From Terriglobia bacterium (GTDB lineage Bacteria > Acidobacteriota > Terriglobia > UBA7540): a stretch of 42,036 bases of DNA. The translations under genes and the position numbers were made by a program. The stretch is from positions 1 through 42,036 of the forward strand of contig JASHQD010000211.1 in assembly GCA_030037755.1 (NCBI GenBank). The letters are read 5' to 3'. This document shows, in pieces, positions 28,079 through 31,298 of the stretch. The notes under the pieces were generated by a model. That model was not told where the DNA came from. It did no database searches and worked only from the letters and a program-made list of their open reading frames with translations. Position 1 is the stretch's first letter. The number at the start of each line of letters is the position of its first letter.

Positions 28079-28480
28079 TCTGCTCTCTGTGTAAAATGCT
28101 GTAGGTAAAGAGCTAAAACGCTCGATCTGTCCGAGGCTAACTCGTCCGCAAATAAACTACATTTTCCGCTTGCTTGCCCCAACCATGCAGCGATAGTCCG
28201 TTCGGAAACTTTTTGCTTGACAACTCGTCATAATAGGTGCAGTGTAGCTTAGTGCTGGGTAGAGGAGATCGATTTATTCCTTCTTCGATAACACCAGCGA
28301 ATAGGTGAGAAGTTCGAGAGATGCTTAGATTCCCCAAATTCGAGTCACCAAGCGAACGGCAAGGTAGGCCGTGCCGCATATTTGTGTGCCATTGGCCACT
28401 ATCGTCCAATAGCACCGTCATGACGGCCAATTCGCGCAGAGGAGGCGGGTAGAGTCCAGGCACAACCAGGATTCTAAGAA

Positions 28481-28510
28481 GGCCCGCCGTAAAAAGCGGG
28501 CCTTTTTTAT
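28481..28510 (+). terminator. rho-independent terminator-like hairpin just upstream of the tRNA array
   Basis: GGCCCGC cgtaaaaa GCGGGCC followed by TTTTTTAT. Confidence 0.75.
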
Positions 28511-28542
28511 TGCTCTTTGACAATTGATCGACAGGAACGAAC

Positions 28543-28617
28543 GGGGGTGTAGGACAACGGCAAGTCTGGCGGACTCCAAACCCGTCGATCCCGGTTCAAA
28601 TCCGGGCACCCCTGCCA
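28543..28617 (+). tRNA. tRNA-Trp (anticodon CCA)
   Basis: GGGGGTG/CACCCCT, G73, CCA encoded; loop CTCCAAA; T-loop TTCAAAT. Confidence 0.88.
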
Positions 28618-28619
28618 AT

Positions 28620-28694
28620 GGCGCGGTAGCCAAGTGGGAAGGCGCCTGTCTGCAAAACAGGCAATCGCCGGTTCGATTCCGGCCCGCGTCTCCA
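28620..28694 (+). tRNA. tRNA-Cys (GCA)
   Basis: GGCGCGG/CCGCGTC, T73, CCA; CCTGT CTGCAAA ACAGG; T-loop TTCGATT. Confidence 0.9.
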
Positions 28695-28696
28695 AG

Positions 28697-28790
28697 GGTG
28701 GTCAGCACTGGTGTGCGGGCGGGCCTTATAAGCCTGTAATCGCTCCGGACGGGAGTGCACGGCAGGGTCCGATTCCCTGGACCACTACCA
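28697..28790 (+). tRNA. tRNA-like, long variable arm (class II architecture), anticodon TAT
   Basis: GGTGGTC/GACCACT, A73, CCA; CGGGC CTTATAA GCCTG; variable-arm stem GCTCC ggacg GGAGT; T-arm CAGGG TCCGATT CCCTG; short D arm GCAC TGGT GTGC. Confidence 0.75.
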
Positions 28791-28800
28791 GGTTGTCCTG

Positions 28801-29113
28801 CTGTAGCGGCGGTCTTTGACCGCCAGACGCGCTGTAGCGGCGGTGTCCCCACCGCCGTCTCCGATCGAGTAGACGCTTCGGCGGTGAGGACAGCGCCGCT
28901 CGCGAGGGAGTAGATCCTTCGGCGGTGAGGACACCGTCGCTCGCGAGGGAGTAGATCCTTCGGCGGTGAAGTACACGATCGCTCGCGAGGGAGTAGATCC
29001 TTCGGCGGTGAGGACACCGCCGCTCGCGAGGGAGTAGATCCTTCGGCGGTGAAGTACACGATCGCTCGCGACGGAGTAGATCCTTCGGCGGTGAGGACAC
29101 CGCCGCTACAGCG
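28801..29113 (+). repeat. tandem/REP-like repeat block inside tRNA array
   Basis: GCTGTAGCGGCGG units at both ends flanking ~41/42-bp tandem units TCGCGAGGGAGTAGATCCTTCGGCGGTGA(GGACACCGC|AGTACACGAT)CGC with starts near 28900, 28941, 28983, 29024, 29066. Confidence 0.92.
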
Positions 29114-29136
29114 CCCGATTCAGATACCAGGCTTTA

Positions 29137-29214
29137 GCCCGGTTGCCAGAGAGGACTATATGGCCTTCGCTACGAACGAAGTGTACGGGGGTTCGAATCC
29201 CTCACCGGGTTCCA
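29137..29214 (+). tRNA. tRNA-Arg (ACG)
   Basis: GCCCGGT/ACCGGGT, CCA; CTTCG CTACGAA CGAAG; T-loop TTCGAAT. Confidence 0.88.
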
Positions 29215-29220
29215 GATTTC

Positions 29221-29299
29221 GGGCGCGTGCGGGCAACCGGAGAGCCCAACAGCCTCCTAAGCTGGAGCTATGTGAGTTCGAGTCTCACCGCGCCTTCCA
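29221..29299 (+). tRNA. tRNA-Arg (CCT)
   Basis: GGGCGCG/CGCGCCT, CCA; loop CTCCTAA; GTGAG TTCGAGT CTCAC. Confidence 0.85.
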
Positions 29300-29300
29300 T

Positions 29301-29374
29301 GCCGGGCTCATCCAACGGCAGGATGTCCGCCCGATTAGCGGAAAATCGGGGTTCAAATCCCTGGCCCGGTACCA
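29301..29374 (+). tRNA. tRNA-like, anticodon position GAT (Ile?) with C33
   Basis: GCCGGGC/GCCCGGT, A73, CCA; ATCC/GGAT D stem; TCCGC CCGATTA GCGGA; CGGGG TTCAAAT CCCTG. Confidence 0.7.
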
Positions 29375-29381
29375 GAGTTGT

Positions 29382-29456
29382 TCAGGTCTAGCTTAAAGGT
29401 AAAGCACCTGGCTGTTAACCAGGGTGATCTCCGTTCAAGTCGGAGGGCCTGAGCCA
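29382..29456 (+). tRNA. tRNA-Asn (GTT)
   Basis: TCAGGTC/GGCCTGA, G73, CCA; CCTGG CTGTTAA CCAGG; CTCCG TTCAAGT CGGAG. Confidence 0.9.
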
Positions 29457-29461
29457 GTTTC

Positions 29462-29537
29462 GGGAGCGTAGTTCAACGGGAAGAATGCTCGACTTTTAAT
29501 CGAGGTGATGTGCGTTCAAATCGCACCGCTCCTACTA
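29462..29537 (+). tRNA. tRNA-Lys (TTT), 3' CTA instead of CCA
   Basis: GGGAGCG/CGCTCCT; CTCGA CTTTTAA TCGAG; GTGCG TTCAAAT CGCAC. Confidence 0.87.
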
Positions 29538-29539
29538 TT

Positions 29540-29614
29540 GCTGGCGTAGCTCAATCGGTAGAGCAGCGGTTTCGTAAACCGCCGGTTTCGGTTCGATTCC
29601 GAACGCTAGCTCCA
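29540..29614 (+). tRNA. tRNA-Thr (CGT)
   Basis: GCTGGCG/CGCTAGC, CCA; GCGGT TTCGTAA ACCGC; TTCGG TTCGATT CCGAA. Confidence 0.9.
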
Positions 29615-29621
29615 GCTTTAT

Positions 29622-29699
29622 GGTGGCCGTAGCTCAAGAGGAAGAGCGCTGGACTGTGAATCCAGTAAGGTGCGACTTCGAGCGTCGCCGGTCACCCCA
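29622..29699 (+). tRNA. tRNA-His (GTG)
   Basis: GTGGCCG/CGGTCAC with G-1:C73 His signature, CCA; CTGGA CTGTGAA TCCAG; GCGAC TTCGAGC GTCGC. Confidence 0.9.
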
Positions 29700-29711
29700 G
29701 GATTTCACCGT

Positions 29712-29768
29712 TGTAGCGGCTCTCTCCGAAGGAGCAGGTCATCGGTTCGAATCCGATCAGGGCTTCCA
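29712..29768 (+). pseudogene. 5'-truncated tRNA-Arg (CCG)-like fragment
   Basis: anticodon arm GCTCT CTCCGAA GGAGC, T arm ATCGG TTCGAAT CCGAT, CAGGGCT-T-CCA present; no matching 5' acceptor or D arm upstream. Confidence 0.7.
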
Positions 29769-29786
29769 GTTGGTGTAGTTCAGCAT

Positions 29787-29862
29787 CGGGGCGGAATTCG
29801 AGCGGCAGAATACCAGCCTCTTAAGCTGTGCGGTAAGGGTTCAAGTCCCTTCGCCCCGACCA
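29787..29862 (+). tRNA. tRNA-Lys (CTT)
   Basis: CGGGGCG/CGCCCCG, A73, CCA; loop CTCTTAA; AAGGG TTCAAGT CCCTT. Confidence 0.87.
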
Positions 29863-29874
29863 GGTTTATAGAAT

Positions 29875-29953
29875 GCCCTGTTAGCTCAGATGCGTTATGA
29901 GCAAGTCTCTTACAAAGACGAGGCCGCAAGCTCGCAACTTGCACGGGGCACCA
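29875..29953 (+). tRNA. tRNA-Val (TAC), divergent
   Basis: GCCCTGT/ACGGGGC, A73, CCA; GTCT CTTACAA AGAC; T arm GCAAG CTCGCAA CTTGC (non-TTC loop). Confidence 0.75.
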
Positions 29954-29957
29954 GATT

Positions 29958-30036
29958 GGGTCATGGGACTGCACGGGGTGGTCGCCGCACTTGCAATGCG
30001 GATAACAGGTGGGTTCAATTCCCACATGATCCACCA
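29958..30036 (+). tRNA. tRNA-Ala (TGC)
   Basis: GGGTCAT/ATGATCC with G3:U70 Ala identity pair, A73, CCA; CCGCA CTTGCAA TGCGG; GTGGG TTCAATT CCCAC. Confidence 0.88.
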
Positions 30037-30045
30037 GTTTCTCGA

Positions 30046-30119
30046 GCGGGCGTAGTTCAGTGGCAGAATCCGACCTTGCCATGGTCGAGGCACGGTTTCG
30101 ATTACCGTCGCCCGCTCCA
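30046..30119 (+). tRNA. tRNA-Gly (GCC)
   Basis: GCGGGCG/CGCCCGC, U73, CCA; CGACC TTGCCAT GGTCG; ACGGT TTCGATT ACCGT. Confidence 0.92.
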
Positions 30120-30120
30120 T

Positions 30121-30194
30121 GCGGATGTAGCTCAACGGCAGAGTGCTGGTCTTCCAAACCAGCGATGCGGGTCCGATTCCCGTCATCCGCTCCA
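30121..30194 (+). tRNA. tRNA-Gly (TCC)
   Basis: GCGGATG/CATCCGC, U73, CCA; CTGGT CTTCCAA ACCAG; T-loop TCCGATT. Confidence 0.92.
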
Positions 30195-30198
30195 GATT

Positions 30199-30274
30199 CG
30201 GGATGTAGGGTAACTGGCAGCCCACCTGTCTTGGGGTCAGGGCGGTGGAGGTTCGAATCCTCCCATCCCGACCA
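30199..30274 (+). tRNA. tRNA-Pro (TGG)
   Basis: CGGGATG/CATCCCG, A73, CCA; loop CTTGGGG; GGAGG TTCGAAT CCTCC. Confidence 0.9.
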
Positions 30275-30280
30275 AATTGT

Positions 30281-30357
30281 TGCGGAGTGGACTGGAGTGG
30301 CACCAGCTTGGTCTCATAAGCCAAACCACGCGGGTTCGATTCCCGCCTCCGCTACCA
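30281..30357 (+). tRNA. tRNA with CAT anticodon (Met, or Ile2 if lysidylated)
   Basis: TGCGGAG/CTCCGCT (U1:U72), A73, CCA; TTGGT CTCATAA GCCAA; GCGGG TTCGATT CCCGC. Confidence 0.82.
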
Positions 30358-30374
30358 CGTTATTTCTCAAGCAG

Positions 30375-30425
30375 GCGGCCGGAATGCGTAGTTTCTCGCC
30401 CCAGGTAGTCACGCGTTCCGGCCGC
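30375..30425 (+). other. 14-bp inverted repeat / hairpin in gap between tRNAs
   Basis: GCGGCCGGAATGCG (30375-30388) vs CGCGTTCCGGCCGC (30412-30425), 23-nt loop, 13/14 Watson-Crick plus one wobble. Confidence 0.8.
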
Positions 30426-30435
30426 GACGGGGAAC

Positions 30436-30514
30436 GGGCAGTTAGAGGAGCCAGGACGTCCTCGGAACCTTGTCACGGTTCAGATCGCGGGTTCGAATCC
30501 CGTACTGCCCGCCA
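30436..30514 (+). tRNA. tRNA-Asp (GTC)
   Basis: GGGCAGT/ACTGCCC, G73, CCA; GAACC TTGTCAC GGTTC; GCGGG TTCGAAT CCCGT. Confidence 0.92.
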
Positions 30515-30515
30515 C

Positions 30516-30590
30516 GGCCTTGTCGTCTACAGGTTAGGATGGCTGACTTTCAATCAGTCGAACCGGGTTCGAGTCCCGGCGAGGCTACCA
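30516..30590 (+). tRNA. tRNA-Glu (TTC)
   Basis: GGCCTTG/CGAGGCT, A73, CCA; GCTGA CTTTCAA TCAGT; CCGGG TTCGAGT CCCGG. Confidence 0.9.
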
Positions 30591-30592
30591 AT

Positions 30593-30665
30593 GGGCGCGT
30601 CGTCCAACGGAGCAGGGCCACGGTCTTCTAAACCGTAGATGGCGGTTCGACTCCGCCCGCGCTAC
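30593..30665 (+). tRNA. tRNA-Arg (TCT), no encoded CCA
   Basis: ACGGT CTTCTAA ACCGT; GGCGG TTCGACT CCGCC; acceptor GGGCGCG/CGCGCTA with weak terminal pairs. Confidence 0.8.
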
Positions 30666-30677
30666 AGCGAAGAGTAT

Positions 30678-31220
30678 ATGAGCGACACCCTCATTCTCGA
30701 TACTTCAGGCTTTCCGTTGGCATTCGTGTCGTGGCAGCGCGCGGTGAGCCTGCAATGGCAGGACCGCGCCGTGGTGATCGCCGAGGACGCCGAGCGCATT
30801 CTTCGGGCGCCCTCGTTCGAGATGGGACTGCCGCGGGTGATCAAGCTGCGGAACCACATCAGCCGGAAGCTGCGGCTCAAGGTGCCGATGACGCGGCGCA
30901 ACATCGCGATTCGCGACCACAGTTCGTGCCAGTACTGCGGCATGGTCCTGCAGACGGCGGACTACACGATCGACCACGTCCTGCCCAGGGCTCGCGGCGG
31001 AAAATCGGTCTGGACGAATCTGGTGCTGGCGTGTGTTCGATGCAACAAGCACAAGTCCGATCGGACGCCGCAGGAAGCGGGCCTGTTGCTGACGCAGAAG
31101 CCGGTAGAGCCCAGCCAGTTCGATCCAAGGTTCAACTTCAGGCTGCACATCAAGGTGTTGCGGCCGGAGTGGTCCGACTACAAGGCATACATCTATTGGA
31201 ATGTAGAGTTGGAGAAGTAA
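30678..31220 (+). CDS. HNH endonuclease family protein embedded in tRNA array
   Basis: NIAIRDHSSCQYCGMVLQTADYTIDHVLPRARGGKSVWTNLVLACVRCNKHKSDRTP: HNH core with CxxC zinc motifs; ATG 30678. Confidence 0.9.
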   Translation: MSDTLILDTSGFPLAFVSWQRAVSLQWQDRAVVIAEDAERILRAPSFEMGLPRVIKLRNHISRKLRLKVPMTRRNIAIRDHSSCQYCGMVLQTADYTIDHVLPRARGGKSVWTNLVLACVRCNKHKSDRTPQEAGLLLTQKPVEPSQFDPRFNFRLHIKVLRPEWSDYKAYIYWNVELEK

Positions 31221-31222
31221 GG

Positions 31223-31298
31223 CCCAGGTGAGCTAGTGCGGTCATAGCGCCCGCCTGAAGAGCGGGAGAACGGCGTTCGACTCGCCGGCCTGGGACCA
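31223..31298 (+). tRNA. tRNA-Phe (GAA)
   Basis: CCCAGGT/GCCTGGG, A73, CCA; CCCGC CTGAAGA GCGGG; CGGCG TTCGACT CGCCG; starts 3 nt after the HNH stop codon. Confidence 0.88.

Follow-up and report, generated by a model that had tools for sequence, protein, structure and literature searches.

The window analysed here, 42,036 nt in length, is the whole of contig C7 from a 6.68 Mb metagenome-assembled genome (MAG, 86% complete) of a member of the Acidobacteriota. Positions 28543-31298 of its + strand hold 21 tRNA genes and one tRNA fragment within 2.8 kb, a density beyond chance, with an HNH-family gene embedded among them. The ~250 nt before the first tRNA, overlooked in a first-pass annotation made from the sequence alone, contain a leader open reading frame (ORF), an antiterminator/terminator pair and a boxA-like motif. 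From this layout and its recurrence in other genomes, we consider it probable that the array is an inducible spare set of tRNAs under ribosome-mediated transcription attenuation. The leader region comprises the following elements; leader peptides are given here and below up to their stop codon.

28217-28245, + strand: possible promoter read from the sequence, with -35 TTGACA (28217-28222), a 17-nt spacer and a weak -10 CAGTGT (28240-28245)
28321-28452, + strand: leader ORF of 43 codons, MLRFPKFESPSERQGRPCRIFVCHWPLSSNSTVMTANSRRGGG, with orthologous ORFs in genome G001 and, two in tandem, in genome G188
28444-28488, + strand: predicted antiterminator, in which GGCGGG (28444-28449) and TAGAGTCC (28450-28457, holding the stop codon) pair with GGATTCTA (28469-28476) and CCCGCC (28483-28488)
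28479-28508, + strand: predicted intrinsic terminator before the first tRNA, AAGGCCCGC / GCGGGCC (28496-28502), followed by six T (28503-28508)
28511-28522, + strand: boxA-like antitermination motif TGCTCTTTGACA, core TTTGA[ACG]AA

Of the 16 amino acids served by the array, the window leader ORF covers 15, lacking only Asp, and it includes the rare codon ATA. The prefix ending with the antiterminator has a predicted folding energy of -24.9 kcal/mol (z -4.5 against dinucleotide shuffles), and with a ribosome placed on the leader stop codon the terminator folds at -20.4 kcal/mol. The intrinsic terminator lies between the ORF and the first gene, and the predicted folds include a competing antiterminator that depends on ribosome position. 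The same layout is found in the trp, his and ilv attenuators, where a short ORF rich in the regulated codons precedes mutually exclusive antiterminator and terminator structures. The array leaders likewise have codons that match the downstream products, modestly so for the window leader alone. Unlike those attenuators, they precede tRNA genes rather than biosynthetic genes, and their codons span the whole isotype set of the array, or all 20 amino acids, where those attenuators cover just one to three. In 33 of the 52 leader regions the boxA-like core (the TTTGACAA motif) lies between the leader and the tRNAs, as compared with 1.6% of shuffled sequences; we take the name boxA from the rrn consensus, and the function of the motif is putative.

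Array content and genomic setting

ARAGORN called 20 tRNAs in the array, all on the + strand, and Rfam RF00005 contributed a tRNA-Val (44.3 bits) that ARAGORN missed. The order and anticodons agree with those given by the first-pass annotation, which had also described 21 tRNAs, a truncated tRNA-Arg and an embedded HNH gene.

28543-28617, + strand: tRNA-Trp (CCA), ARAGORN and Rfam
28620-28694, + strand: tRNA-Cys (GCA), ARAGORN and Rfam
28697-28790, + strand: class II tRNA with a UAU anticodon and a long variable arm, called Ile by ARAGORN
28791-29125, + strand: GC-rich inverted/direct repeat block between tRNAs, with similar repeats elsewhere in the genome
29137-29699, + strand: tRNAs Arg-ACG, Arg-CCU, Ile-GAU, Asn-GUU, Lys-UUU, Thr-CGU and His-GUG, ARAGORN and Rfam
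29707-29765, + strand: truncated tRNA-Arg (CCG), Rfam score below gathering
29787-29862, + strand: tRNA-Lys (CUU), ARAGORN and Rfam
29875-29950, + strand: tRNA-Val (UAC), Rfam
29958-30665, + strand: tRNAs Ala-UGC, Gly-GCC, Gly-UCC, Pro-UGG, Met/CAU, Asp-GUC, Glu-UUC and Arg-UCU, ARAGORN and Rfam
30678-31220, + strand: HNH-family gene inside the array, 180 codons, ATG at 30678 and stop at 31220, Pfam HNH_5 and HNH
31223-31298, + strand: tRNA-Phe (GAA), the final tRNA of the array, ARAGORN and Rfam

The Arg-CCG fragment scores 28.8 bits, narrowly below the 29-bit gathering score, and since its counterpart in the congener G001 is whole, it appears to be a decayed gene. The repeat block consists of units of ~83 nt, with 29-nt arms that are 97% complementary. 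AUA codons are not usually served by a class II tRNA; tRNAs of this kind with a UAU anticodon also occur in arrays of distant genomes (L066, L089, L091, L125, L126, L127 and L128), and the codon ATA occurs in leaders of G000, G001, G188, G244 and G277. The embedded HNH gene shares 84-85% identity across three array genomes.

Leu, Ser, Tyr and Gln, which the first-pass annotation had found missing from the window array, are indeed absent, and contig C177 of the source genome holds a second array made up of exactly these isotypes, with ten tRNAs in all (Leu x4, Tyr, Ser x3, Gln x2). In G001, which belongs to the same genus, the two arrays adjoin on one contig. Elsewhere in the source genome there are 35 distinct tRNAs, and on this ground the idea that the arrays are simply the normal tRNA complement was rejected; among comparable isotypes the array copies are 54-82% identical to these other tRNAs. 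The array is patchy among relatives within the class, and because the flanking genes of the window lie on separate contigs in G001, it does not sit at a conserved chromosomal place. With upwards of ~20 tRNA genes densely packed on a single strand, surplus to the housekeeping set located elsewhere, and with a distribution that points to horizontal movement (patchy in the class, at another genomic place in the congener), the array is a supernumerary L-array (tRNA array unit), a known kind. It resembles the long tRNA arrays of Acidithiobacillus ICEAfe1, Mycobacterium plasmids and phages, and the Anabaena PCC 7120 trn operon, which are likewise dense, patchy sets of more than 20 spare tRNAs with an embedded or adjacent HNH gene; mycobacterial arrays, too, carry one. 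It differs from them in lying on a chromosome-like contig and in being split in two. None of the 17 ORFs scanned in the window is phage-like or an integrase, as the first-pass annotation had stated, and a prophage origin was rejected.

It is very improbable that the array is just a mobile relic in decay that no longer has a function. One tRNA has decayed, a repeat block has been inserted and presence in relatives is patchy, but 21 genes retain tRNA scores and cloverleaf calls, and the leader, antiterminator, terminator and boxA-like motif are retained in G000, G001 and G188. Of the two outcomes that the first-pass annotation had named as speaking against a special role, namely that these are the only tRNA copies of the genome or a randomly decaying relic, most is thereby excluded; what is left of them is the decayed tRNA and the lack of a copy of four isotypes (Trp, Asn, His and Tyr) among the 35 in the 86% complete MAG, for which missing contigs or unscored candidates are probably the reason.

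Leaders of other tRNA arrays

A short ORF followed by an intrinsic terminator stands ahead of both arrays in the source genome and in G001, whose leaders are conserved equivalents of the two. The C177 leader, MKRLSQSRLQSLSSYLSLSVPGCG, is rich in Leu, Ser, Gln and Tyr, the isotypes encoded behind it. In G188 two leader-terminator units lie in tandem before one array (L089 2180-2640, minus strand), as if for a sharper switch; tRNA-Trp is absent from this array and Trp from both leaders. Genomes from other families partition their arrays differently, and the leaders are partitioned likewise. In G244, MTIQTKSIMRRRVNRARPSGLV precedes Asn/Met/Ile/Val/Lys/Arg, MMRKPHTDCFPTPATFTWQGAGEGTFM precedes Glu/Gln/Asp/Trp/Gly/Cys/Thr/His/Ala/Phe/Pro, and MKRLLQFRSSLRLSPSRLSY precedes Leu/Ser/Tyr; the leaders of G552 are MKPGTTFVAKNMWRDSIEAIGQTPGCRH and MFRYRSSSLRLLSRSLRSR, the latter preceding Ser/Leu/Tyr. 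Residue precision was higher for cognate leader-array pairs than for swapped pairs with every leader of G000, G001, G244 and G552, and the codon-level tests of leader against array gave joint p values from <0.0001 to 0.036. A further G244 array (L097 3656-5014, minus strand) has no obvious leader or terminator and is probably of another kind.

Unsplit acidobacterial arrays have a distinct structure downstream of the ORF, in which the segments of a GCGGGAGCGG-loop-CCGCTCCC hairpin are used again by the terminator that comes after it. Scanning 85,462 species genomes for this hairpin returned 108 stretches; together with other known loci, 45 had tRNAs within 700 nt, and frames were counted in the 40 loci left after dereplication. 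Each of the 40 has a frame that stays open for 48 codons or more, with its stop 3-5 nt upstream of the hairpin. The final 50 codons contain on average 18.9 amino-acid types in this frame; the other two frames each give 16.3, and random sequence of matched composition gives 16.7. Counted from the chosen start (41 loci, ~59 codons), Trp is present in 93% of the leaders against 38% of protein windows, and all 20 amino acids, leaving the start uncounted, in 54% against 2%. The leader sequences themselves are barely alike (median identity 21%). The hairpin pattern had seven matches in viral contigs, none with downstream tRNAs. At one locus (L122 5229-5360) a match to YrlA, a Y RNA-like RNA, lies immediately 3' of the tRNA array.

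Leaders of apparently similar kind precede arrays in at least three phyla, Acidobacteriota, Cyanobacteriota and Actinomycetota. Upstream of the trn operon of Anabaena PCC 7120 we found MISKLSSSINNAVHCQPYRDLGRAIALFAFEGMYLFIGEKSISVGIFGALASWLNRDQLILSGRCKCLIAPT, followed by CCCCCGC...GCGGGGG-TTATTTTTT; an HNH gene comes next, along with the tRNAs. Relatives are present on 17 plasmids. With the start counted, none of the 12 cyanobacterial leaders examined, the Anabaena trn leader among them, lacks any of the 20 amino acids; 11 have a terminator and ten have tRNAs within 1.9 kb downstream. Some of these ORFs are annotated as hypothetical proteins and others are unannotated. Three mycobacterial plasmid arrays have upstream ORFs of ~86-98 codons with 19-20 amino-acid types. 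Their leaders (L252, L253 and L259) share a common 3' end (SHK...) and a hairpin of CTTCCGGTC...GGCCGGAAG type within the ORF. HNH similarity is a weak marker of arrays: four of the ten plasmid matches that were retrieved (Acaryochloris, Bosea, Tsukamurella and Miltoncostaea, of which Acaryochloris was scanned for tRNAs) showed no array sign. The genome sequences directly show the ORF and terminator, the pairings that compete, the match between codons and array, and the recurrence of all these.

T-box riboswitches control transcription read-through in response to tRNA status, and the leader RNA could similarly sense uncharged or cleaved tRNA directly, the ORF being a by-product. It would make sense for tRNA sensing to act on an array, and the mycobacterial leaders do have a conserved hairpin inside the ORF, but amino-acid coverage in one frame would be left unexplained, and we regard this explanation as highly unlikely. 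A T-box covariance model had no match at E<=1 in the window between 26000 and 34000 and none among the matches listed for eight array loci, so control by a T-box was rejected; sensing in the array leaders would instead pass via the translated ORF.

In Anabaena the trn operon stays silent unless translation is stressed, and translation-targeting antibiotics induce it; TrcR represses its promoter, and loss of TrcR derepresses the operon (PMC10272220). By analogy, a promoter repressor alone might control such arrays, with the ORF incidental and the hairpin merely the terminator of the upstream gene. We think this very doubtful. At C177 the terminator does not belong to the upstream gene, because that gene is divergent, and frame-specific coverage, fixed stop-to-hairpin spacing, the matching of leaders to arrays and the tandem units of G188 would all be unexpected. 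Attenuation and repression could, moreover, coexist.

Proposed switch and its direction

For each of the nine window-type leaders, the transcript ending with the terminator 5' arm is predicted to fold so that the end of the ORF pairs with that arm (-16.7 to -29.6 kcal/mol). Once a ribosome occupies the stop codon, no alternative fold of any stability is left (0 to -3.4 kcal/mol), and the terminator is free to form. Compared with shuffles, the prefix folds are clear in six of the nine and marginal in G188_A1b (P 0.07). We infer that the ORF is translated, and likewise the direction in which the switch works. Transcription would start upstream, and a ribosome would translate the 43-codon leader, whose codons cover nearly every tRNA of the array. 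As long as all sampled tRNAs are available, the ribosome would reach the stop codon and cover GGCGGGUAGAGUCC, the terminator would form and the array would stay silent. If any of these tRNAs were depleted, whether by anticodon nuclease cleavage, by lack of charging or by a block in translation, the ribosome would stall upstream, the free end of the ORF would pair with the terminator 5' arm, and RNA polymerase would continue into the array. A stalled ribosome would mean ON because the window antiterminator (28444-28488) contains the stop codon. The boxA-like site past the switch would then aid the polymerase across the long untranslated array. The purpose, on this model, would be to replace lost tRNAs.

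The same parts could work in reverse, as an AND gate in which the array is transcribed only if the ribosome reads every codon to the stop and is off under amino-acid starvation. For leaders of the GCGGGAGCGG class, whose stop codon lies just before segment 1 at every locus counted, a ribosome at that codon would mask segment 1 and free segment 2 for segment 3, and the folds of L122 and L128 agree with this. However, the antiterminator appears in only two of eight hairpin-class folds, the window type and the cyanobacterial leaders have an ORF end that pairs with the terminator 5' arm and so point the other way, and translation inhibitors induce the Anabaena array rather than shutting it off. 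We therefore hold the AND gate to be unlikely, if less so than the other alternatives.

Several observations weigh against attenuation of a spare tRNA set as we propose it. The main weakness is the conflict of direction in the predicted folds: in the GCGGGAGCGG class, an upstream stall gives the terminator and a ribosome on the stop gives the antiterminator (2/8), the reverse of the window type, and the folds do not yield a single logic shared by all leaders. The terminator is often the energy minimum of the full-length RNA, and control would therefore be kinetic. The prefix folds of G001_A1 and G244_D are no more stable than shuffles, and leaders G244_E and G552_2 have no clear terminator. 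For the window leader by itself the amino-acid match is modest (p 0.03-0.06), so the case for a codon match rests on the comparison across genomes; under strict wobble rules its codons leave Asp, Ile-GAU, Lys-CUU and Ala-UGC unsampled. Close pairs of leaders show no codon-position bias, although this, like the low identity among leaders, is the trace that would be expected of selection for the alphabet rather than for a protein. TrcR already accounts for part of the induction in Anabaena.

Implications for long tRNA arrays

The arrays of G034 and G244 encode the RNA ligase RtcB, with a partial RtcB in G036, and in G244 the array is followed downstream by Hen1 (Hen1_L) and two RlaP RNA-repair genes (RtcB / Hen1_L / RlaP array genes at L067 537-1739, L090 13033-18532 and L092 1092-2009). 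Taken with the leaders, these genes suggest that the cell would answer tRNA destruction both by making new tRNAs and by repairing those that were cut. A tRNA-damage response that includes RtcB is known from the RtcR-controlled rtcBA operon of Salmonella (PMC7790460). There, a protein, RtcR, responds to damaged tRNAs, whereas here the proposed sensor is the translating ribosome and the output mainly new tRNAs. The first-pass annotation had offered an auxiliary or stress translation set, or a decoy set against anticodon nucleases. The former is strengthened by the 35 other tRNAs and their divergence from the array copies, by the patchy presence of the array and its different place in the congener, and by the stress-induced Anabaena trn operon, which is the relative studied best and has a similar leader; the latter fits less well, as leaders that read codons point rather to the replacement of lost tRNAs.

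The supernumerary L-array itself is known; what appears to be new is the leader ORF with a terminator before such arrays. The open-access accounts of long tRNA arrays consulted here do not mention a leader peptide or attenuator, and in the open-access literature we found no account of a tRNA array or gene cluster with a leader peptide and nothing relevant with attenuation; an earlier description in the subscription literature may exist. We lean towards a general sensor of tRNA loss, common to Acidobacteriota, Cyanobacteriota and Actinomycetota, in which the destruction of any tRNA would cause leaders that sample either all 20 amino acids or exactly the set of their own array to turn on replacement tRNAs, in some arrays along with RtcB/Hen1/RlaP repair genes. 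Attenuation would thereby be widened from one or a few amino acids to a whole set, and there would be a candidate mechanism for the way in which translation inhibitors are known to induce the Anabaena array. If the reading is true, tRNA depletion has natural reporters in these leaders, which are also a marker by which arrays can be located in genomes. A codon-reading leader would offer long tRNA arrays a purpose in the replacement of lost tRNAs, a trigger in the stalling of ribosomes at any depleted codon, and a direct test; a tRNA-damage response of three phyla would, if true, explain what these arrays are for.

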